In this document: positions 22,684-61,659 of the stretch, one piece after another | Numbering within the stretch: the first letter of the stretch is position 1 | Layout: each line of letters starts with the position of its first letter | Assembly (NCBI RefSeq): GCF_013155295.1 | Contig: NZ_JABJXT010000008.1 | Span: 124,001-188,000, forward strand | Length of the DNA: 64,000 nt | Direction of reading: 5' to 3' | DNA from: Pseudogemmobacter hezensis | Lineage (GTDB): Bacteria; Pseudomonadota; Alphaproteobacteria; Rhodobacterales; Rhodobacteraceae | Translations under genes and position numbers: made by a program | Notes under the pieces: generated by a model | Seen by the model: the letters and a program-made list of their open reading frames with translations, nothing else | Databases searched by the model: none | Told to the model about the DNA's origin: nothing

Positions 22684-22759
22684 GCCCCTATAGCTCAGCT
22701 GGTAGAGCATCTGATTTGTAATCAGAGGGTCGGCGGTTCAAGTCCGTCTGGGGGCACCA
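22684..22759 (+). tRNA. tRNA-Thr(TGT)
   Basis: 76 nt with CCA encoded. Acceptor GCCCCTA pairs with TGGGGGC; D arm contains AGCTCAGCTGGTAGAGC; anticodon loop TTTGTAA gives TGT (codon ACA); T arm holds GGTTCAAGTCC. It is the integration site of the prophage; its 3' 49 nt are duplicated at 61605. Confidence 0.95.
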
Positions 22760-22765
22760 TAAAAT
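22711..22765 (+). repeat. attL, 55-bp core repeat
   Basis: Bases 22711-22765 (anticodon loop to 6 nt past CCA) are identical to 61605-61659. The crossover preserves the tRNA at this side. Confidence 0.95.
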
Positions 22766-26834: not shown

Positions 26835-27377
26835 TCAGGCTCCTTGTTTGAGAGATTGCAGGCAGAGCGTCTGCTCAGCGGCGCGGCGGTTGGTCAGGCC
26901 CCGGATCACCTTGCCGCCCGCCTTGTCCCACCTGGGCAGTTGATTGCAGGCCCCGCGCCAGTCGCCCGCGTTGGCCCGCTTCGCCAGCGTCGAGCTACAG
27001 GCCGCGCCCGCCCCGACGTTATAGGTCCAGCTGGTCAACATGGCCTGCACGTCTCGCGGCTGCTGGTGAAGCGTCGGGATGCATTTGGCCAGCTGGGCGT
27101 GATAGACTGACAGCGAGGCAATCAGCATATCTGCGCATTGCTGCGACGTGTATTTGTCGCCCTGCTTCACGCCTTTGGTCTCGCCATAGCAGACGGTCCA
27201 GACCGGCGGGCTGGCGATGCGGTCGAGGTAAGCCTCAAGCCGCTCACCTTCCCAGGGGCCGACGAAAGCAGCCGCGGCGATCAGCACGGCGGCGGTGCCC
27301 GTGGCGGCCGAGGATTTCGGGCGGGCAGCAAAAAGCCCCCCGAACCAGGCGAAAAGCCCGGTCAGGAATTTCAACAT
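26835..27377 (-). CDS. GH24 endolysin with N-terminal membrane segment
   Basis: 180-residue muramidase cutting peptidoglycan. The phage lysozyme catalytic pattern is seen in EGERLEAYLDRIASPPVWT with Glu, Asp and Thr in order, then VCYGETKGV and the downstream LTSWTYNVGAGAACSSTL. Residues 1-40 contain two hydrophobic stretches, which suggests a SAR/anchor type release. ATG 27377 follows GGAGAACGAC. A truncated 95%-identical copy is at 63703-63990. Confidence 0.88.
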   Translation of the reverse strand: MLKFLTGLFAWFGGLFAARPKSSAATGTAAVLIAAAAFVGPWEGERLEAYLDRIASPPVWTVCYGETKGVKQGDKYTSQQCADMLIASLSVYHAQLAKCIPTLHQQPRDVQAMLTSWTYNVGAGAACSSTLAKRANAGDWRGACNQLPRWDKAGGKVIRGLTNRRAAEQTLCLQSLKQGA

Positions 27378-28069: not shown

Positions 28070-29260
28070 TCACAGTAGCGACAATGCCACTCCCCCAATT
28101 GCACCGACCAGCACAACCAGCCAGGGCGCTGCTCTCCACATCACCAGCGCAACGAAACATGCCAAAGCGAGGGCGAAGTCTTGCATGTTCCCAAGCGCAT
28201 TGGTGAACACGGGCGAATACAGCGCGGCACCCAGGATGCCGACGACAGCGGCATTTGCGCCCTGCATCGCAGATTGTGCCTGCGGTTTCACCCGAAGGTC
28301 GTCCCAAAAAGGCAGCACGGCAACGAGGAGCAAAAAGCCTGGCAAGAATACGGCCAGCAAGGCGAGAGTGGCGCCGACAACGCCATTTGGTACTGGTCCG
28401 AGAATCGCACCGAGATAGGCCGCGAAGGTGAAAAGCGGGCCCGGCACAGCCTGTGTTGCGCCGTAGCCTGCAAGGAACTGATCAGGCGTCACCCAGCCCG
28501 AAGCCACAACCTCCGTCTCCAGCAGAGGCAAAACGACATGGCCTCCTCCGAAGACAAGTGAACCTGCGCGATAGAAGCTGTCCAGAAGGGCCCACCATTG
28601 GGAAAGACCCGCCAGCAGAGGCAAACCCAGCAGAAGCACTGAGAATGCAACCAACGCGATGCCGGCCTGAATTTTTGTGACAGGCACTTTTATGTGCCCG
28701 GCCACAGGGCTGCCAGTTCCTCGGCTCAACACCAGGCCTGTCAATCCCCCCATTGCAATTGCGCCCATCATGCCAGCTGCACCAGGAAGAAAGGCCAGCA
28801 TGGCGACTGCAATCACCGCTATGGTCGCTCTTTCACGGTCAGGGCACAGGCCGCGCGCCATGCCCCAGACTGCCTGCGCAACTATGGCAACAGCTACGAC
28901 CTTCAGGCCATGTAAAGCGCCAGCTCCGATAGGACCGGATACAGACGACGCAGTTAGTGCAAATGCGAGCAGGATCAGGGCAGACGGCAAGGTAAAGGCT
29001 ACGAAGGCCGCGAGTGCCCCCAGCCATCCGGCGCGCATCATTCCCAGGGCAAAGCCGACCTTAGACGAAGCGGGGCCAGGCATGAACTGGCAAAGAGCCA
29101 CAAGATCCGCGTAGTCAGCGTCAGAGAGCCAGCGCCTGCGCGTGACAATTTCGTCGCGGAAGTATCCCAAGTGTGCGATTGGCCCACCGAAAGAGGTTAG
29201 GCCCAGCTTGAGGAAGGCACCAAACACCTCTGTGGGAGTGCCTTTAGGATGAAGCGTCAT
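28070..29260 (-). CDS. chrA: Chromate transporter ChrA (prophage cargo)
   Basis: 396-residue two-domain CHR-family efflux protein of the inner membrane that exports chromate. Each half carries the CHR motif: SFGGPIAHLGYFRDE near residue 24 and VFGGGHVVLPLLE in the second half, with about ten membrane helices. Length is standard. No ChrB regulator is beside it. The 195 nt upstream (29,261-29,455) hold no gene but an imperfect TAGAT..ATCTA dyad at 29323-29354 that could be an operator. It is a host-benefit gene between lysis and tail genes of the phage. Other CHR-family substrates cannot be excluded. Confidence 0.88.
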   Translation of the reverse strand: MTLHPKGTPTEVFGAFLKLGLTSFGGPIAHLGYFRDEIVTRRRWLSDADYADLVALCQFMPGPASSKVGFALGMMRAGWLGALAAFVAFTLPSALILLAFALTASSVSGPIGAGALHGLKVVAVAIVAQAVWGMARGLCPDRERATIAVIAVAMLAFLPGAAGMMGAIAMGGLTGLVLSRGTGSPVAGHIKVPVTKIQAGIALVAFSVLLLGLPLLAGLSQWWALLDSFYRAGSLVFGGGHVVLPLLETEVVASGWVTPDQFLAGYGATQAVPGPLFTFAAYLGAILGPVPNGVVGATLALLAVFLPGFLLLVAVLPFWDDLRVKPQAQSAMQGANAAVVGILGAALYSPVFTNALGNMQDFALALACFVALVMWRAAPWLVVLVGAIGGVALSLL

Positions 29261-52236: not shown

Positions 52237-52956
52237 TCACCCTTTCCGCATATGAATGTCTGACGCCGGGATCCGGATCTTGCGCGCGGCGCCCAGCATT
52301 GAAAGCTCGCCCTCAATCATCTGGCCGCGCAGGGCCATGAAGGCGACACGCCAGCCCGAGAGAGGGCCGAACAGGATCTCCAGCTCATCACCGGGCATCA
52401 GGCGCCCCTCGACACCGGTATCGTCGAAGGCACCGGCAGAGGCGGCGTTCTGAAGCTTGCGGAGCTGATGCTCGCTGGCGACCGGCAACGGCCCCTTGTC
52501 GTCTGCGATCCAGCCGATCACCCGATTGCAGGCGCGGACCTGCGGCCATTGCGCCGGCTGGATGAACGCGAAGACATAGCTCGGGCACAGCGGGCGCTCC
52601 ACGATCACGGAGCGGCGCTTTTTCCGGGGCCAAGTCCGGGTGCGATAGGTCAGCGGGCAGACCTCAACCCCCATCTCCTCCAGTTCTTCTCGTGCCTCGT
52701 TCTCCTTGCCGGTCAGGCAGCGGATGCCGAACCATCCGGGAGATGGAGCCTTGCCGATGGTGCGCAGATCGCGGTCAGACGACCAGACTTCGAAAGCCAG
52801 AATGTCGTCGGCTCCCCCGTCATGGTGCCAGCGGAGCAGATCCGCCCGGGAAGTGCGCCGCCGGTCGCCGGTCGCCGGGCCGCGATATACCGGCCTGACC
52901 AGCGCTCCATTCGGGCCGGTATATTCGCCGCCTTGGTGCTCGTGTCGTGTCCACAT
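52237..52956 (-). CDS. NusG/RfaH-like transcription elongation factor
   Basis: 239 residues. NGN domain at 74-150 (GWFGIRCLTGKENEAREELEEMGVEVCPLTYR...VERPLCPSYVFAFI) and a KOW domain at 187-213 (MPGDELEILFGPLSGWRVAF). The first 70 residues are extra. It sits upstream of the packaging and structural genes, so an antiterminator of the late operon is likely. Sequence differs from host NusG proteins, which start near the NGN. Confidence 0.8.
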   Translation of the reverse strand: MWTRHEHQGGEYTGPNGALVRPVYRGPATGDRRRTSRADLLRWHHDGGADDILAFEVWSSDRDLRTIGKAPSPGWFGIRCLTGKENEAREELEEMGVEVCPLTYRTRTWPRKKRRSVIVERPLCPSYVFAFIQPAQWPQVRACNRVIGWIADDKGPLPVASEHQLRKLQNAASAGAFDDTGVEGRLMPGDELEILFGPLSGWRVAFMALRGQMIEGELSMLGAARKIRIPASDIHMRKG

Positions 52957-53466: not shown

Positions 53467-53642
53467 TTGCGCCCCCGCTTTGCCTTCTGGATCGCGCCCA
53501 GAACCCAGATCACTGGCCATGCAAAGAACAGCGCGAAATGCAGGCCGAAGCTGACCCGATCCGCCATGCCGTGCGCGATTCCACAGCTAAACGCTCCAAC
53601 GCAGATGTAGCCCCAGATCAGGTGGGGAATGATGTCAGGCAT
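53463..53642 (-). CDS. Short membrane protein
   Basis: 59 residues from ATG 53642 with two membrane helices (LIWGYICVGAFSCGIAHGMA and FGLHFALFFAWPVIWVLGAI) and a basic tail KAKRGRK. Overlaps the 318-residue gene by 8 bp and the next by 4 bp. Unknown; possible host-membrane effector. Confidence 0.5.
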   Translation of the reverse strand: MPDIIPHLIWGYICVGAFSCGIAHGMADRVSFGLHFALFFAWPVIWVLGAIQKAKRGRK

Positions 53643-54591
53643 GGGATCTCTCCATCTTGCGCCGCTGCTTGCCCACGGTGGTCGGGCTGACCCCGGTGCG
53701 GCGGGCGATCTCGCGGTCTGTCAGTTCGAAGTGCTGGCGCAGCAGATCGAGGACGGCGGCGCGGCGCTGTGTCTCGGTCTGGGGTTGCGGCTGTCCGGTC
53801 TGGACGCTGACGGATAGGATGGCGAAGTCGGCTTTCAGGGCGGCCAGCACCACCTCATCGCGCTCGGCCCCACGAGAGAAATCCCGCTTCGCCAAGTCCA
53901 GCATCCAGTCGATGCGAGCAGCGACACCTTCCGCAGTCGGATCAGCAAGCGTGTCCAGCAGATGCTCCAGCGCACCGCGCCAGGCCTCGGACCAGTGCCC
54001 GGGCGTCCAATGGTCATCGACGGTGTAGCGGTCGGTTCCAAGGGCCTCCTGAGCCCGGTGCAGGGCCAGCAGCTCGGGCAGTGTCGTCGGCACGTGAACA
54101 GCCGCCCGGATGGCCTCCCACATGGCGGGCGTGGGTTCGTTGGCGCGATAGTCTTCATATCCCCAAATGCGGTTCGCAGGATCTTCCAGATGCGCGAGGG
54201 CTTCGCGCAACGCCGCCTCGATCTCGGTATCTTCGAACACTGCCTCCAGGCTGCCGTATTGCGCAGCGAGGGCGTCGCAGCGCGCACGGCGCTTCGCTTC
54301 CTTCTCGGCCCGCTCCTTGGCCTGACGAGCCTTGTGCCCGGGGTTCTTGCGTTCCTCCTCATCCTCCATCGCGCCGAAGATGTCAGCGAAGGACGGCGAG
54401 GCGGTTCTGACGATCCCGACAGGCGCGTCCAGCTTGGACATGGCCTGCCAGAGCGTAAGCCCGGCCCGGGTGGCGAGGGTTTCGGCTTTACGCTTGGCGG
54501 CCTGTCGCTCGCCCAGCGTCTTGCCGCCCTCCATCAGCGCCTTGAATTTGCGCAGCTTGTCGGTGTCCAGTGTGGATGCGTGGGCGTTCAT
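53635..54591 (-). CDS. DUF2786-like protein with C-terminal HTH
   Basis: 318 residues. N-terminal LRKFKALMEGGKTLGERQAAKRKAETLATRAGL resembles DUF2786. C-terminal VLDLLRQHFELTDREIARRTGVSPTTVGKQRRKME is a clear helix-turn-helix. Probable phage regulator or replication accessory. Part of the early operon with tight overlaps. Confidence 0.65.
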   Translation of the reverse strand: MNAHASTLDTDKLRKFKALMEGGKTLGERQAAKRKAETLATRAGLTLWQAMSKLDAPVGIVRTASPSFADIFGAMEDEEERKNPGHKARQAKERAEKEAKRRARCDALAAQYGSLEAVFEDTEIEAALREALAHLEDPANRIWGYEDYRANEPTPAMWEAIRAAVHVPTTLPELLALHRAQEALGTDRYTVDDHWTPGHWSEAWRGALEHLLDTLADPTAEGVAARIDWMLDLAKRDFSRGAERDEVVLAALKADFAILSVSVQTGQPQPQTETQRRAAVLDLLRQHFELTDREIARRTGVSPTTVGKQRRKMERSHA

Positions 54592-55393: not shown

Positions 55394-55617
55394 ACGCGGA
55401 TCTCCTTCATTTCAGCCCGCAGGACCGCGATCACCATCTCAGCGCGGGTCAGATCCTTGCGGGGCGTGGGGCGGATAAGGGTGAAGCCGGGCCGGGTTTC
55501 TTCCCTGGCGTCAGGCTCGGTGACCGGGGCGTCCCAGGGTGCACGGGAGAGCGTGACCGCTTCCAGCGCACCAGTGGTGCCAGTGGCCCGGACGAGGGCT
55601 TTGCGGGAGGGAGTCAT
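55390..55617 (-). CDS. Small early phage protein
   Basis: 75 residues (MTPSRKALVRATGTTGALEAVTLSRAPW...). ATGA overlaps with helicase stop and next gene. Unknown. Confidence 0.5.
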   Translation of the reverse strand: MTPSRKALVRATGTTGALEAVTLSRAPWDAPVTEPDAREETRPGFTLIRPTPRKDLTRAEMVIAVLRAEMKEIRV

Positions 55618-57110
55618 GCTGATGCCTTTCCGCTGGTGTATCGGGCGTTGCTCTCGAATTTGCTGTAGGTCATGCCGTGCTCGTGGAAGCGCAGGCGCAT
55701 GTTGCCGGGCGAGAAGCCGTAAAGCTGGGTTTCGCGCACCTTCCAGGTCATGATCTGGACGAACTCGTCTCCGTCGCCGTCCTCGTCCTTATGGACGCTG
55801 AAACCCAGCGCGGGCTTGTTGAAGAACGCCGCACTGTCGGCGATATCGTAGCCTGTCGGGCACTTCATCTTGCCTTCGGTGCTCATCTTCCGGGGGTGAG
55901 CGATCACGCAGATATGCGTGTCGTACTGCTCGGCCCAACTGCGGATCTGCTGGAGGGCGAAGTTGATATAGGCGGTCATGCTCTCGCCCTTCTCGGGCAG
56001 GTGCTCCAATTCGTTCCATGGGTCGATGATGATCAGCTTGCAGTTGTCGCGGACCGCGAGGATTTTGATATTGGCCCGGAGCCACGCGAGATGGTGCTGC
56101 ACGTCAGCACTGTAACGCCGATGAACGATACGAATATGCCGATCACCGAACGTATGGACCTGAGCCAGTTCCGAATTCGTCAGTTCGGCAAATGGCTTTC
56201 GACAGAGCAGCCGAGCGATCTGATCGCGGATCCGGTAAGAGTGGGTCTCGAATGGCAGCAGGCCGACCCTGATGTTCTCGTGTCGGGCGATGTGATAGGC
56301 GGCAAAGGTCGTGAAGGTGGATTTCCCCGCCCCGGGCGTTCCCGTGCCGACTGACATTGCGCCGACCTCGAATGCGAGACCGTGATCGTATGGCGACATT
56401 CCAAGGCGAAGGACACGACGCTCCGGCATCGGTGGAAGATCGTGCAGGCTGGTGATGAAACCGCCAGCCGGGTCCATCTGGACAGCATCGGCCAGGCACC
56501 CCGCCAATTCGCCTTCACCGAAGCGCATCAGCACATCATTGGCATCCTTGCAACCGTCGGGCCAGGTGACATAGCGCACGTCGTGACCGTCGAGGATGTT
56601 GGAGACCGTCCTCGGCAGGCTCGCCCCGGCTTCATCGGCGTCGCCTGCCACGATGATGTAGGGCGCCGTGCGTAGCAAAGGCTCGGCCTCGATCAGCACG
56701 TCCCGCTTGCCGCCGTCCACCGTCCAGCCATCTGGCAGAGAAACCGCCCGGGAATACCCCGCCTGGATCACGCTCAGCGCGTCAATCTCGCCCTCGGTGA
56801 TGACCACCGGACCATCGCCCTCGCGCAGTGCGTCCTCATTGAACAGACCACGCGAAACACCCTGCGTTGAGCGCCAGTCTTTCTTCTCAATCGCGCGGAA
56901 CTTCCCAGCGTAAGGCTTTCCGTCCCGGCGATAGGGCAGCGCGATCACCGGCCCGAGTTGAGGATGCACATCCGCCCGAACCCCCATGTGCTCCAAAAGC
57001 ACGGCGTCCAGCTTGCGCACCTCGATAAGATACCTGATCGGCCCCGCGATCTTCGAAGAAGGCTCCCCCCGCGAAATCGCAGTGCCAGCATTTCCATTGG
57101 ATTCCGTCAT
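55614..57110 (-). CDS. Toprim-DnaB-type primase-helicase (T7 gp4-like), zinc domain split
   Basis: 498 residues. Toprim: VITEGEIDALSVIQAG and VAGDADEAG. Helicase: Walker A GTPGAGKST and LIIIDPWNE, then ICVIAHPRK. Like gp4B of T7 it lacks the N-terminal zinc domain, which is encoded just upstream in another frame (56887-57249). A six-G run at 57065-57070 separates the frames: with one G less, the two would join as CDFAGEPSSKIAGPIRY. Replication fork helicase and primase. Confidence 0.85.
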   Translation of the reverse strand: MTESNGNAGTAISRGEPSSKIAGPIRYLIEVRKLDAVLLEHMGVRADVHPQLGPVIALPYRRDGKPYAGKFRAIEKKDWRSTQGVSRGLFNEDALREGDGPVVITEGEIDALSVIQAGYSRAVSLPDGWTVDGGKRDVLIEAEPLLRTAPYIIVAGDADEAGASLPRTVSNILDGHDVRYVTWPDGCKDANDVLMRFGEGELAGCLADAVQMDPAGGFITSLHDLPPMPERRVLRLGMSPYDHGLAFEVGAMSVGTGTPGAGKSTFTTFAAYHIARHENIRVGLLPFETHSYRIRDQIARLLCRKPFAELTNSELAQVHTFGDRHIRIVHRRYSADVQHHLAWLRANIKILAVRDNCKLIIIDPWNELEHLPEKGESMTAYINFALQQIRSWAEQYDTHICVIAHPRKMSTEGKMKCPTGYDIADSAAFFNKPALGFSVHKDEDGDGDEFVQIMTWKVRETQLYGFSPGNMRLRFHEHGMTYSKFESNARYTSGKASA

Positions 57111-57249: not shown

Positions 57250-57394
57250 TGCGCACCTCCAGCATTGCCTGCCATCTGCTGCGGCCCTGGGCGCGAGCCG
57301 CCCGGGTTTCAGCCTCGAAGCGAGAGAGCCCACCGTTGAACTCCATGATCGCGGCCCGCTCTTCAAAAGCATAAATGTCGAACGGCTCAGTCAT
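57107..57394 (-). CDS. Small early phage protein (ERAAIMEFNGG type)
   Basis: 95 residues from ATG 57394 (MTEPFDIYAFEERAAIMEFNGGLSRFEAETRAARAQG). 'ERAAIMEF(D/N)GG' is a recurrent phage motif of unknown role. Its C-terminal part overlaps the zinc-domain ORF. Confidence 0.55.
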   Translation of the reverse strand: MTEPFDIYAFEERAAIMEFNGGLSRFEAETRAARAQGRSRWQAMLEVRNADRNGNSQGAQDHGSPMVGHHADHLSAVQPDPTEQDGSLPQRDVQT

Positions 57395-58142
57395 GGAGGA
57401 CCACCCAGCCCACGCCACCGACATATTGCCTGCGGACGCCATCACGCTCTCTGATTTCGCCAACCTCGGTGCCACCACCGCTGCTGCGCTTTGGTTTCAG
57501 AGCTGCCGTGATGTACGGGATCGGATCCTCGGTTCTCGCCCGGTCGGCCGCCTCAATGGCCACCAGCAGCTCCGAAGCTGTCGCCGTCTTGAGCCAGTTA
57601 CCAATCAGAGGACCAGGCTTCTCGACACCGTGCTTTGCCAAAAACGCCTTGCCGATGGCCCAGACGGCGGCCAGTGGCGAGGACAGATCTACCACCTTTT
57701 CAGGATCAGAAATCGGCGACGCGGAAGCGTCTTCCGAAGGAAGTATTTGTTCCCTTGTTTTTTTTGTGTGCCCTTGCTGTGCCCTTGCCGTGCCCTCGAC
57801 TGTGCCCCTCTTGTTGTCGGGGTTCTGATATTTCTCATAATTACGAATAGTTATAAGAAGGCGACCCGTGCCCTTATCTGTGCCGATTGCGTCCTCGGTG
57901 CGAAGCTGGTCGATCAGGCCGCGAACGACCTTGATTGGAACACCTGTGGCGGCTTCAAGCTGCCGGAAAGAGGTGAGAAGCTGTCCACGATGGACAGCCA
58001 CGGGGCGGCCATTGGCGTCCTGTCGCGTGTCCTGCCAGGCCGCCGTTTCCAGCAGATACATCCACACATAGAGGCGGTCGGGGCGCTTGTGAAAAATGGG
58101 GTGATCCGTCACCCCCCGCTTGACGGAGAACCAGCCGCTCAT
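57387..58142 (-). CDS. Replication initiator/organiser (lambda O-like)
   Basis: 251 residues. N-terminal winged-helix (GWFSVKRGVTDHPIFHKRPDRLYVWMYLLETAAW...VAVHRGQLLTSFRQLEAATGV) as in phage replisome organisers; linker with the iterons; C-terminal LIGNWLKTATASELLVAIEAADRARTEDPIPYITAAL contacts helicase in the family. Helicase follows downstream. The likely origin is inside the gene. Confidence 0.7.
   Translation of the reverse strand: MSGWFSVKRGVTDHPIFHKRPDRLYVWMYLLETAAWQDTRQDANGRPVAVHRGQLLTSFRQLEAATGVPIKVVRGLIDQLRTEDAIGTDKGTGRLLITIRNYEKYQNPDNKRGTVEGTARAQQGHTKKTREQILPSEDASASPISDPEKVVDLSSPLAAVWAIGKAFLAKHGVEKPGPLIGNWLKTATASELLVAIEAADRARTEDPIPYITAALKPKRSSGGGTEVGEIRERDGVRRQYVGGVGWVVLHD
57767..57885. 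other. Candidate phage replication origin (iterons plus AT-rich stretch)
   Basis: 11-bp repeats TGTGCCCTTGC at 57767 and 57778, CGTGCCCTCGA at 57789, TGTGCCCCTCT at 57801, then an AT-rich 57827-57860, then CGTGCCCTTAT at 57867 and TGTGCCG at 57879. A T8 run precedes. Position inside the initiator gene matches the lambda origin. Confidence 0.6.
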
Positions 58143-58433: not shown

Positions 58434-58625
58434 TCAGCCTGCCTCCGCCCGCTGCGAGGCGTACAGCATTGAGATCCCAGCATTCAGCCGAGCCAGTGCA
58501 GCTTCACAGCCCGCCCCCAGCGCTTTCCGGTCGTTGTCAGGCTGGTAGCGGGTGGTCATTTCGAGAAGCTGCAGCATATCGCGGGCGCTTGCGAGTTCAT
58601 CCAAAGCGTCGAGGATGTCGCTCAT
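58434..58625 (-). CDS. Small early phage protein
   Basis: 63 residues (MSDILDALDELASARDMLQLLEM...). All-helical. Stop one base before the next start; start overlaps the previous stop (ATGA). Unknown. Confidence 0.55.
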   Translation of the reverse strand: MSDILDALDELASARDMLQLLEMTTRYQPDNDRKALGAGCEAALARLNAGISMLYASQRAEAG

Positions 58626-58996
58626 TCCGACACCCCCACCAATGCGCGGGCTTCGGCCCAGATTTCCTCGCCCCTTGCCCCGTCGCCGATTTCATGCTGG
58701 CCGTGGTAACTGTAGGCCATGATCTTCCAGATCAGATCCATCGGCCCTTCCGAGGGAATATCCAGAATGTCGTCAGCAAGCTTAAAGGTTGCCATGCACC
58801 AACGGTCGCCATTCTCGTCGCTGCTGTCGCGCTCCATATCGGCAGTCCAGCCGTCGAGGCTACGCTTCCAAGCCAGATAGGCCTGCTGGACGGGGGTCTC
58901 CTCAAAATTGAGGACACATGCGGCCTTTACAGCCTGGGTGCCAAGGGATGCCGTGAGCGCGGCACCTGAGGCGATAAGAAGGTCACGACGCTGCAT
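58622..58996 (-). CDS. Phage-encoded exported protein with Tat-like leader
   Basis: 124 residues. The leader MQRRDLLIASGAALTASLGTQAVKA has twin Arg, a hydrophobic core and an AxA cleavage site. Mature part is helical with one Cys near the start and one in RWCMATF. Located in the early operon, strange for a secreted protein. Function unknown. Confidence 0.55.
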   Translation of the reverse strand: MQRRDLLIASGAALTASLGTQAVKAACVLNFEETPVQQAYLAWKRSLDGWTADMERDSSDENGDRWCMATFKLADDILDIPSEGPMDLIWKIMAYSYHGQHEIGDGARGEEIWAEARALVGVSE

Positions 58997-59228
58997 GGCT
59001 GGCCTCCTCCTTAGCCTCCCGGAGCGCCGCCCAGGTCGTCAACTGCTGGCGCTCGGCGACTTCGACGCAATGCTCGATCATGCGGATCATCACATTGATG
59101 CTCAGGGCATCGGGGTGCGTTTGCGTGATGCAGGCGCTCTCCATGCTGATCTGATAGAGGGCGTTCACCAGTCCCTTGATGTCGGAAAGGTGGCCGTCTG
59201 TGGCGTTGAGGCCGTCATAAACGCTCAT
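58983..59228 (-). CDS. Small early phage protein
   Basis: 81 residues from ATG 59228 (MSVYDGLNATDGHLSDIKGLVNALYQISMESACITQTHPDALSINVMIRMIEHCVE). Helical. Overlaps both neighbours. Unknown. Confidence 0.55.
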   Translation of the reverse strand: MSVYDGLNATDGHLSDIKGLVNALYQISMESACITQTHPDALSINVMIRMIEHCVEVAERQQLTTWAALREAKEEASHAAS

Positions 59229-59422
59229 GCCGCCACCTCCCGGCTTGCCAGCCATGCGAGGATTTCGGCCTGCACCCAGAACCGGCGCTGACCGATCATG
59301 CGGGCCTTCGGGAAGCCGAGTTCCGGGCGGCGGGTCCAGCGTTCCAGCGCCGAGAGCGAGATATCGCCACACAGGACGCGAACGCGCTGCGAGGGGATCA
59401 GTTGAATATTATTCGGCTGCAT
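59225..59422 (-). CDS. AlpA/Xis-like HTH, candidate excisionase
   Basis: 65 residues; core SLSALERWTRRPELGFPKARMIGQRRFWVQAEILAWLASR is the AlpA/MerR-type winged helix common in excisionases. 1.9 kb from the integrase on the same strand. Assigned by fold pattern. Confidence 0.7.
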   Translation of the reverse strand: MQPNNIQLIPSQRVRVLCGDISLSALERWTRRPELGFPKARMIGQRRFWVQAEILAWLASREVAA

Positions 59423-59642
59423 GCGAGGGTGCCTCCGAATGGTCTTTGTGGGCCTTCACGGCAGCGGGGGTCGCGTCGCCAAACTCAGCCCCCGTTGCCT
59501 CTTCCAGCACCTTGACCAGATGCGCGTTGAACGTCCGCCCGGCGCGGATCGCTTGGATTTTTGCCTCAGTCACGAGACTGCGAGGCAGGCGCATGGTTGT
59601 AACCACGACCTCCTCTTTCGCCAGAGTTTGCCTAGAATTCAT
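59409..59642 (-). CDS. Ribbon-helix-helix regulator A
   Basis: 77 residues. RHH core VVVTTMRLPRSLVTEAKIQAIRAGRTFNAHLVKVLEEAT. AGGAGG before ATG 59642. First gene of the leftward early operon, so position corresponds to Cro. Divergent from another RHH gene. Confidence 0.7.
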   Translation of the reverse strand: MNSRQTLAKEEVVVTTMRLPRSLVTEAKIQAIRAGRTFNAHLVKVLEEATGAEFGDATPAAVKAHKDHSEAPSHAAE

Positions 59643-59719
59643 GATCTAGCCTCCTTGATGCCAACTTAGCACCATATTTGGCCGCCTCGGTCATGATGTC
59701 AATTCGGAATACATGCCCC

Positions 59720-59737
59720 TTTGGCATTAATTGCAAA
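59720..59737. promoter_or_regulatory. 18-bp dyad operator between the RHH genes
   Basis: TTTGGCATTAATTGCAAA: 14 of 18 positions are symmetric (TTTG..ATTAAT..CAAA). Nearby direct repeats CTAACAGTGC (59753) and CTAACGAGTGC (59763) may be further half sites. It lies in the 144-bp divergent region. Confidence 0.55.
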
Positions 59738-59786
59738 TCGGCATAACATCGTCTAACAGTGCCTAACGAGTGCGGAGAAAAAAATC

Positions 59787-60188
59787 ATGGCAGAGCGCGA
59801 GCTTTATCCGAGCGAGAAGCAAGAGCGGTTCATTGTTCGGTTTCCGGACGGGATGCGCGACCGAATCAAAGCCGCCGCGGAAGCCAACAACCGCTCGATG
59901 AACGCCGAGATAGTGGCGACGCTTGAAGAAAAGTATCCTTCTGAGCCTCCAGATCTCGGAACAATCTTTCATGAACTCGCACAGCTCTCAGGCGTCCTGA
60001 ACATGATGACTGAGAAGGACAGGCGTGACGCCGTTGCCACCAAGCTAAAAGACCTTGAGCGTCGGGGCGCTCAGGACATCAACATCTTCATAGATAATAA
60101 CGCACTGGAGCTTGTAGTTGGCAACGGAGGCATAAGGTCCATCATTGGCCTTGATGACCCAGCAGAGGATTATGGCGAGGAAGCCTGA
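59787..60188 (+). CDS. Arc/Mnt-like ribbon-helix-helix regulator B (repressor candidate)
   Basis: 133 residues. N-terminal Arc pattern RFIVRFPDGMRDRIKAAAEANNRSMNAEIVATLEEKY; C-terminal 80 residues are an unknown oligomer or sensor domain (GTIFHELAQLSGVLNMMTEKDRRDAVATKLKDLERRG). Only plus-strand gene in the control region. Overlaps the integrase 3' end by 47 bp on the opposite strand. Likely prophage repressor. Confidence 0.65.
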   Translation: MAERELYPSEKQERFIVRFPDGMRDRIKAAAEANNRSMNAEIVATLEEKYPSEPPDLGTIFHELAQLSGVLNMMTEKDRRDAVATKLKDLERRGAQDINIFIDNNALELVVGNGGIRSIIGLDDPAEDYGEEA

Positions 60189-61419
60189 CCACATTCCCAG
60201 ATTTTCCAGGACTGCCCTCGACCAGCTCGGCGACAAACCGCGCCCATGCCTCCAGCGCCTCGCGCTTCTCGTCGGCATAGTCGTGCCGCTGGTAGACCGC
60301 GACGATACCGCCGCCCGTGCCTGAAACGTGGTTCAGCACCGCCTCTGTGACGCGCACGGGGATGCCGAGCCGGGCCATGCCGGTCGCAGCTGTGCGGCGC
60401 AGATCGTGCCAGGTCCAGTGCGGGATATCGACCGCCTCGCCGCGCTCTTTCTCGGCCGCTGCCAGCATCCGGGCATGAAGATGGTCACGCCCCTTTGAAA
60501 AGCCCGAGACAGGCGTGGTGCCGGTGGTGGTGAAGATCCAGCGCACCCGGCCAGCTTCATCCGCGATCCGGTCAATGCCCTCCAGAACCGCCGCAGCAGC
60601 GCCAGAGAGGGGCAGGACATGCGCTCGCCCGTTCTTGGTGCGCTCTGCGGTCATGTGCCACTCGCCAGCCCTAATTTCAGCGTCTGTGATTTCCGCGACC
60701 TCGTTGCGACGCTGTCCTGTCAGCAGCAACATCTTGCCGAATGGCCCCCAGGGGAAAAGCTCCGCCTCACAGGCAGCCCAGAGCCAGCGGATCTCGTCGT
60801 CAGTCAGAACGCGCTCGCGGACCTTCTCTTTCGCGGGGGCCTTGACGGACAGGGTCGGCGGCACCTCGATCACGTCCCGGTCAGCGCACCAGTTGAAAAA
60901 CTTACTCAGATAGGCGCGGATGCGGTTGGCGGTCGTGGCCTTTCCCTGGTCTGTGATGCCGTCCAGCAAGTCGAGAACATCGCGCTTTGTGATGGTCTGG
61001 ATCTCGCGCTCGCCCCATACCGGGATGATGTAGCTCTGGAACTGGCGCATCACCTCGTCACCGGATCGCAGGCCGCGAAGGTGGCGCTTCTCAAACAGCT
61101 CGATCTGGACGCGGACCTTGTTCTTATCGTCCGCCTCCTTGGGGGCTTTGGCGGCCTTGACCTCTGCCGAAGGGTCGCGGCCCTCAGAGGCGGCAGCCAG
61201 AGCATCGCGGGCGCGTTGGCGGGCCTCGGCCAGCAGCAGGACGGGGTATGGGCCCAGCGTCATTCTGCGGTGTGTTCCCCCGTGCCGATATCGGACCTGC
61301 CAGCCCTTCTTTCCTGTCGGCTGCACAATGAAATAAAGGCCGGTGCAGAGGTCGTCAGGGATTTCCTGGCGGCGATCTGTCGGCTGAAGCCTGTCCACGT
61401 TCTGCGCCGTCAGCTTCAT
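60142..61419 (-). CDS. int: Tyrosine integrase (P4-type)
   Basis: 425 residues. N-terminal DUF4102-like arm domain (KLTAQNVDRLQPTDRRQEIPD...LGPYPVLLLAEARQRA), core-binding domain and catalytic domain with Arg in TGQRRNEV, His-x-x-Arg in HDLRRT, His in LNHVSG and Tyr in VYQRHDY. ATG 61419 follows AAAGGA. Adjacent to attR. Confidence 0.93.
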   Translation of the reverse strand: MKLTAQNVDRLQPTDRRQEIPDDLCTGLYFIVQPTGKKGWQVRYRHGGTHRRMTLGPYPVLLLAEARQRARDALAAASEGRDPSAEVKAAKAPKEADDKNKVRVQIELFEKRHLRGLRSGDEVMRQFQSYIIPVWGEREIQTITKRDVLDLLDGITDQGKATTANRIRAYLSKFFNWCADRDVIEVPPTLSVKAPAKEKVRERVLTDDEIRWLWAACEAELFPWGPFGKMLLLTGQRRNEVAEITDAEIRAGEWHMTAERTKNGRAHVLPLSGAAAAVLEGIDRIADEAGRVRWIFTTTGTTPVSGFSKGRDHLHARMLAAAEKERGEAVDIPHWTWHDLRRTAATGMARLGIPVRVTEAVLNHVSGTGGGIVAVYQRHDYADEKREALEAWARFVAELVEGSPGKSGNVVRLPRHNPLLGHQGQ

Positions 61420-61604: not shown

Positions 61605-61659
61605 CTGATTTGTAATCAGAGGGTCGGCGGTTCAAGTCCGTCTGGGGGCACCATAAAAT
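61605..61659 (+). repeat. attR, 55-bp core with 49-nt tRNA-Thr 3' fragment
   Basis: Identical to 22711-22765. Bases 61605-61653 are the tRNA tail from the anticodon arm to CCA; no 5' half precedes, so it is not a tRNA gene. Confidence 0.95.

Follow-up and report, generated by a model that had tools for sequence, protein, structure and literature searches.

A divergent pair of ribbon-helix-helix genes as the putative lysis–lysogeny switch of a Pseudogemmobacter hezensis prophage

In phage lambda, lysogeny is decided at O_R, where CI/Cro lie between the integrase side and the early operon with divergent promoters and operator dyads on both sides. The mnt and arc genes of phage P22 are divergent as well, its immI region includes sar, an antisense RNA directed at ant, and in Arc, a ribbon-helix-helix (RHH) protein, Gln9 is a contact residue. 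According to the accessible part of PMC11016777, the primary repressor of P22 is C2, which is modulated by immI; further facts on immI (mnt, arc, ant) are given in the available text of PMC7549136. P22 is therefore no instance of RHH-only lysogeny control, contrary to what a sequence-only reading of the locus described here had supposed. In turn, the RHH protein F55 of SSV1 is described as the main viral keeper of the lysogenic state, with sensing via RadA proposed (PMC9608457, available excerpt), and in Pf prophages insertion of an Arc gene replaces repressor C in 12 of 182, with a role that is only suggested (PMC7549136, available excerpt). Among the best-ranked titles and abstract beginnings of our literature search, no divergent RHH pair was reported as the sole lysogeny switch of a tailed phage.

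We analyzed a stretch of 64,000 nucleotides of the P. hezensis genome (4.6 Mb), hereafter the window, in which 55-bp direct repeats flank a 38.9-kb prophage at tRNA-Thr. Its structural set comprises small and large terminase, portal, S78 protease, HK97-type capsid, tail genes and lysozyme, while the early genes encode a primase/helicase, a DnaD-like loader and a NusG-like antiterminator. The features that frame the locus are:

22711..22765, plus strand: 55-bp repeat, one attachment site, overlapping the tRNA-Thr 3' end (repeat comparison)
55614..57110, minus strand: primase/helicase of the early operon (domain/PHROG matches)
57387..58142, minus strand: DnaD-like helicase loader of the early operon (PHROG match)
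59225..59422, minus strand: AlpA/HTH_17-like small protein of excisionase type, overlapping the end of B (Pfam matches below cut-off)
59409..59642, minus strand: gene B, RHH protein of 77 aa, proposed Cro/Arc-like early regulator at the head of the leftward operon (profiles, AF2, fold search)
59787..60188, plus strand: gene A, Arc/Mnt-type RHH protein of 133 aa, proposed lysogenic repressor (Pfam, PHROG, profile, AF2)
60142..61419, minus strand: tyrosine integrase, convergent with A (domain match)
61605..61659, plus strand: 55-bp repeat, other attachment site (repeat comparison)

Judging by its sequence context, the A-B pair is probably the lysis–lysogeny switch of this prophage, with A as a Mnt-like lysogenic repressor and B as a Cro/Arc-like early regulator, both acting on dyads between the two genes. 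Our home-made gene caller places all genes from 26405 to 59642 on the minus strand, and A is the sole gene it calls on the plus strand in the 26.1–60.2 kb interval. The leftward early operon begins with B and runs on one strand from the AlpA-like gene to the replication genes; on the other side, the 3' ends of A and the integrase overlap by 47 bp. This overlap, together with that of B and the AlpA-like gene, could indicate that the pair controls integration and excision only (int, AlpA/xis), the lytic genes being under separate control, and small integrative elements of the L038–L045 type indeed carry A|B adjoining the integrase without phage genes in the visible stretch. We consider this improbable, since the operon of the window continues from AlpA into replication genes on the same strand and no separate early repressor was found in the prophage.

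Several other features were observed in and around the prophage. The NusG-like antiterminator lies in the early operon at 52237–52956 (Pfam NusG 5.6e-10, PHROG 6386), and a chromate transporter domain (1.8e-38) is encoded within the prophage at 28070–28861, adjoining the lysis end. Just beyond the right repeat, the segment 62713–63990 repeats the beginning of the prophage lysozyme (26835–27377), holds other short frames, and is possibly a neighbouring second prophage or a remnant. Small proteins with a twin-arginine-like N-terminus are encoded a few genes from B in loci of both classes defined below (58622–58996 in the window; L003 4332–4673; L051 10283–10678; L057 5262–5627; L095 3563–3919). 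They share, as judged by eye, a P-V/I..L-F/Y.W-like stretch; Pfam gave nothing at 0.01 for the four sampled outside the window and only one sub-threshold match for 58622.

As the sequence-only reading had it, an Arc-like gene (59787) faces another RHH gene (59642), and the two are divergent over 144 bp. Gene A belongs to the Arc family by its match to Pfam PF03869 (4.2e-13, 49.3 bits, cut-off 20.4), and a profile of 20 A-type proteins matches AmrZ (1.3e-12), Mnt (4.9e-7) and also Arc in PDB. Its AF2 model consists of an RHH at residues 10–49 and two predicted C-terminal helices (57–73 and 77–109), a layout of RHH plus helical C-terminal part which we take to resemble that of P22 Mnt. As for gene B, we detected no Pfam match at E ≤ 1 for the protein alone, only weak PHROG matches (0.0075–0.0098), nothing by tblastn at E ≤ 0.01 across 50,697 phage records, and no match to its peptide patterns in the viral contigs searched. 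The profile of B and 11 relatives (12 B-type proteins) aligns with the A profile (hhalign, 98.3%, 1.5e-14) and matches Mnt (1.9e-7), Arc (1.8e-5) and also AmrZ in PDB; because this profile includes plainly Arc-like B proteins, its matches are not independent proof for B of the window. The AF2 model of B has the two RHH helices (block-mean pLDDT 84–93), and Arc is its top fold match in Foldseek (E 0.22), with other RHH proteins also nearest. A reading of the pair as orphan antitoxin or partition-type RHH proteins with no tie to phage control would draw on weak FitA-like/ParD matches of A, below cut-off, and on the label of PHROG 795, partition protein. It seems very improbable, as no toxin or ParA family occurs among the scanned neighbours, the genes are divergent rather than operonic, and the same placement recurs in phages of several genera.

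The claim that no CI-like peptidase repressor is visible in the prophage was borne out by a six-frame HMM search of the own genome. HTH_3 was found at 31 places (E ≤ 0.1), of which one lies in the prophage and scores 16.3 bits against a cut-off of 23, so that none there exceeds the cut-off. Likewise, none of the places found for Peptidase_S24 (two), Rha (two, one below cut-off) and ANT (one) is in the prophage. Rha and ANT over cut-off occur only on contig C26, and the gene following B in the window is AlpA-like. Contig C26 (29 kb, phage genes) carries, at 1.4–2.1 kb, a CI-type frame of 240 aa with HTH_3 and S24 and a Cro-type frame; at 27.6–29 kb it has an RHH pair (L030) with a Rha-ANT antirepressor after it. 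The contig probably represents a single prophage of the same cell, equipped with a P22-like double system, and its CI, Cro and antirepressor genes provide a positive control for the repressor search.

We then compared the gene context of A homologs. The A-family search covered 295 genomes of the family, with matches in 19; 20 viral-contig and 22 genome-contig loci came next, and 36 loci, the window included, were tabulated after removal of duplicates, and a search with alignment A1 gave two records only, both already known. An upstream RHH frame on the opposite strand is present in 32 of the 36, including L082, L084 and L086, in which the two RHH frames are 442, 274 and 689 nt apart; no RHH partner was found in L073, L077, L091 and L096. 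Hence such pairs are not rare, contrary to what had been claimed from the sequence alone. Among the maps listed, RHH-pair loci are of two main kinds, class I (antirepressor) and class II (integrase-A|B-AlpA), and in other A-family loci the pair lies near terminase/portal genes or in small integrative elements. Class I corresponds to a P22 immI-like accessory module: the first or second gene past B encodes an antirepressor domain over cut-off (Rha, ANT, ORF6N, AntA). This holds for 14 of the 32 pairs (L003, L057, L058, L059, L061, L065, L068, L071, L075, L079, L080, L083, L094, L095); L063, outside this count, reaches only a below-cut-off score, and the downstream genes of L064, L082, L089 and L092 were left out of the test; L030 of the own genome, L113 and L127 are further members found otherwise. 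Class II comprises the window, L056, L088 (Szabonella alba), L090 (Sinirhodobacter ferrireducens) and L089 (Gemmobacter nectariphilus). The integrase-A|B-AlpA order without CI in view is thus represented by five loci, of which the window alone is complete, and is rarer than antirepressor-type RHH pairs. The rarer feature here is an immI-type pair standing at the CI/Cro position.

HTH_3 over cut-off was detected in 7 of 11 class I-type records (L003, L057, L058, L059, L061, L063, L068), in 4 of the 11 within a frame of at least 200 aa, and was missing from L065, L066, L071 and L075, the records being mostly fragments; L064, L073 and L074, which belong to neither class, were left out of this comparison. 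In L061, CI-like and Cro-like frames stand beside the RHH-Rha module. None of three class II viral fragments has HTH_3 over cut-off, but the class II loci other than the window are viral fragments of 13.7–16.8 kb or lie near contig ends, so that CI absence weighs little there. The genome of L088, G026, has HTH_3 over cut-off on the contig of the pair itself, at a distance of 19 kb towards the integrase, and further HTH_3 matches are found elsewhere in G026, G046 and G323.

These contexts bear on the possibility that the pair of the window is an accessory immI-type module minus its antirepressor, with lysogeny held by an unrecognised regulator: the AlpA-like protein, a host factor, or the protein encoded at 53635–54591, which has a C-terminal HTH (HTH_23, 7.8e-5, just below cut-off). 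The 14 of 32 related pairs that stand before an antirepressor fit such an origin, as do the own-genome copy that shares contig C26 with CI/Cro and the HTH of 53635–54591 itself. We nevertheless hold it to be unlikely: six-frame searching revealed no CI-type regulator in the prophage, the gene at 53635–54591 belongs to the replication operon and is encoded by the lytic strand, A is the only opposing gene called, and the integrase-A|B placement recurs in four further loci. Two other observations concern the surroundings of such loci. AlpA was considered as a marker of the switch and rejected, since in L104–L108 an AlpA-like gene comes after the integrase with no RHH gene seen by eye; AlpA alone is thus no marker. 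In L117, L118 and L158, the A place of divergent pairs is taken by a small protein of another type, marked by a VYALPAEMVDRI-like stretch, which may represent a second RHH family.

In our preferred reading, A and B form the switch and act on operators between the genes; the following candidate elements were found there:

59643..59786, no strand: switch region between A and B, 144 bp (divergent genes either side)
59659..59671, no strand: dyad O1, TGCCAACTTAGCA, operator-like, at the B promoter, centre −33 from the GTCAA anchor (dyad comparison)
59697..59702, minus strand: candidate B (early) promoter −35, TTGACA (GTCAA conservation)
59714..59726, no strand: dyad O3, TGCCCCTTTGGCA, operator-like, centre +22 from the anchor (dyad comparison)
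59721..59749, plus strand: candidate A promoter, TTGGCA, 17 nt, TAACAT (promoter scan)
59731..59743, no strand: extra dyad-like site, TTGCAAATCGGCA, similar in L056 (comparison with L056)

The promoter scan found no −10 for the B promoter. The 18-bp dyad proposed earlier is present, yet imperfect (19-nt arms 59713–59731 and 59726–59744, 79% complementary), and neither dyads (p 0.34) nor repeats (p 0.14) of the window are significant against shuffles of the switch region alone, start positions in these shuffle tests being set by pattern. The dyads gain weight from relatives only. GTCAA, that is, TTGAC of the B promoter −35 reversed, occurs in 40 of 49 related regions (missing as anchor in 9) and its reverse complement in 4, while five control words occur in 1–13 of the 49. 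In the 40 anchored regions, dyad centres cluster at −33, −14 and +22, two of which are occupied in the window by O1 (−33) and O3 (+22); O2 (−14), which many relatives have, cannot be made out by eye in the window. Against dinucleotide shuffles, the clusters reach z values of 3.9, 6.7 and 4.8 in 34 non-redundant regions, which overstate the case because the position windows were chosen on the same loci. A test of the most-repeated 5-mer, free of chosen positions, gave a Fisher p of 1.8e-15 over 43 regions, with 19 of the 43 below 0.05 and the window at 0.14. TGCC-type dyads occupy the same places in the window and L056, i.e., O1, O3 and the third site. Searches of the window for other operator copies gave no more than chance, both for TGCCN5GGCA (5 against 3.5 expected) and for a longer operator pattern with 3 mismatches (31 against 42 expected).

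We found that the dyad motifs are associated with residues of the A β-strand. By sequence, the contact positions of A in the window are Arg14, Ile16 and Arg18. Of the 6 A genes that have Arg at the place of Arc Gln9, 4 are preceded by TGCCN5GGCA, against 0 of 34 others, the motif having been first noticed in two of its four positives. In turn, GTC[AC]N3[GT]GAC accompanies 8 of the 10 A genes that read DKFML and 0 of 30 others; the underlying table has 40 hand-labelled rows, uncorrected for relatedness, and L047, which reads DKFIL, is counted outside the DKFML set. The operator sequence differs among phages and follows the A β-strand. The corresponding residues of B are V, T and R as opposed to R, I and R of A, so that an operator common to both is not implied by sequence here.

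A mosaic relationship with relatives is seen in the same block. By blastn, the window matches L088 at 59225–59374 (70%), 59413–59499 (83%), 59844–59939 (81%) and, within the integrase, at 75%. The shared DNA thus includes the B tail and the A helices; no match was found at 59500–59843, which covers the RHH half of B, the operators and the A β-strand; L056 matches across the whole block (59456–59939, 72%). Matching flanks around a differing 59500–59843 are as expected of swapped immunity specificity, although the L088 pattern might also result from strong selection that acts on the flanks only.

In the resulting model, A would be made from its own promoter in the lysogen and would bind the TGCC-N5-GGCA type dyads O1 and perhaps O3, blocking the leftward early promoter and thereby keeping B, the AlpA-like gene and the replication operon silent. 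Upon infection or induction, B would be made first and would repress A, and itself, from the same region, after which the AlpA-like protein and the integrase would excise the phage. The module may have arisen as a P22 immI-type pair whose antirepressor was lost or never present, placed at the usual CI/Cro position. The sequences show the gene order, the folds, a six-frame lack of S24, Rha and ANT and of any HTH_3 exceeding its cut-off, the comparative operator plan and the association of operators with the A β-strand; who represses whom, bistability, the role in immunity and the induction signal are inferred. The earlier proposal of a genetic switch accordingly stands as the best-supported reading, given the integrase-A|B-AlpA-replication order, A as sole opposing gene called, no CI and the comparative operator plan, once its statements on rarity and P22 are corrected.

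A further conserved element lies within the B gene:

59460..59499, minus strand: HP1, conserved 40-nt hairpin in the 3' part of the B coding sequence (inverted repeat, covariance model)

The boundary of the 83% block shared with L088 coincides exactly with this inverted repeat. The HP1 core (0–2 mismatches) has two copies in the 4.6-Mb genome, each in the B gene of an RHH pair. Exact matches occur in 21 viral stretches, 19 of them in the tail of an RHH-type frame, with L158 read by eye, L142 at only E 0.08 and L157 carrying the hairpin inverted relative to the gene; as for the remaining ones, L140 has it before an antirepressor but outside the RHH frame, and L154 was not placed. Five of the 21 were already known through A, and L150/L155 and L146/L160 are identical in sequence. 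A covariance model applied to 390 genomes of the order identified six strong places (E 4e-12 to 2e-11) in 5 genomes, all B genes of RHH pairs, and a weaker one in G269 (1e-5) with no RHH gene in sight. HP1 is a newly noticed, covarying RNA hairpin almost confined to RHH switch modules. Its inner 2-bp stem, which was outside the selection criteria, is complementary in 20 of 22 distinct copies. Paired cells amount to 96.8% versus 87.0% in shuffles and covariation to 0.337 versus 0.139, 0 of 500 shuffles reaching either value, with the outer stem used for copy selection; the 6 pairs with two-sided changes were reached by 40 of 500 shuffles and the 12 further pair types by 163 of 500. HP1 of the window with flanks is no more stable than shuffles (z −0.79; L059 −2.98, L144 −2.40), and Rfam returned no match at gathering score and only an unrelated sub-threshold match at E ≤ 1. 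An intrinsic terminator was rejected, as no T run follows the hairpin.

The next gene, which has a Shine-Dalgarno site, starts 61–67 nt past HP1 in 16 of 16 loci where it encodes an antirepressor-type domain over cut-off, and 34–40 nt past it in the five class II loci. L090 has two starts, at 40 and 79, of which the upstream one was taken. Of the 24 loci listed, three are counted neither among the 16 nor among the five: L092, with a GTG start at 59, and L154 and L157, which lack a start in that orientation. In L089, which has integrase-A|B and HP1, the AlpA-like frame overlooked by the gene caller starts 34 nt past the hairpin. Class I loci have a second covarying hairpin, HP2 (82% of cells paired), and a hairpin over the Shine-Dalgarno site, HP3, stands just before the start in 16 of 16 antirepressor-type loci. 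HP3 scores at least 6 in 14 of these 16 compared with 40% of 155 control starts (p 4e-4), while the five class II loci score 0–4.5; in the window, HP1 is the only clear hairpin of the three. HP1 is inverted relative to B in L078 (1441–1480) and L157 (10256–10295), and in L078 a ParB-like gene (below cut-off) follows B in the place of the antirepressor. HP1 may plausibly serve to couple the regulated gene to translation of B; alternatively, it may be a recombination joint.

More broadly, and only tentatively, Rhodobacterales phages may carry a portable immunity cassette, unreported in the literature covered here, composed of two divergent RHH genes, a dyad plan varying with the A β-strand and a covarying RNA leader (HP1, HP2 and the Shine-Dalgarno hairpin) before antirepressors, which in the lineage of the window and in L088–L090, of another specificity, would have displaced CI/Cro as the only immunity system. 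If the switch model is true, an RHH pair can take over completely from CI/Cro, and the resulting lysogens have no repressor that RecA could cleave and would therefore need another induction signal. The many natural variants in which the A β-strand and operator change together would form a data set on DNA choice by RHH proteins and on changes of phage immunity type, and the hairpin family offers a concrete new RNA target.

Compared with described systems, the locus shares with Pf prophages an Arc-family gene where a phage repressor gene is missing; Pf, however, are filamentous phages, and a divergent RHH pair is not mentioned in the available part of PMC7549136. As in SSV1, an RHH protein would keep lysogeny, but SSV1 is an archaeal virus with one RHH gene, and no divergent RHH partner is reported in the accessible text of PMC9608457. 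With lambda CI/Cro, the pair has in common its position, divergent promoters and operator-like dyads; the regulators, in contrast, are RHH rather than HTH proteins and carry no S24 auto-cleavage domain, and hence have no direct RecA route to induction. The locus also resembles P22 immI, in which two RHH repressors are likewise divergent and a longer Mnt-like protein is opposed to a shorter Arc-like one at the operon head, and whose antirepressor is also found in relatives of the window (L003, L030, L061 and others). Yet, unlike in P22, no antirepressor follows B in the window and no CI/C2-type repressor was found in it, so that the module would here provide primary rather than secondary immunity.
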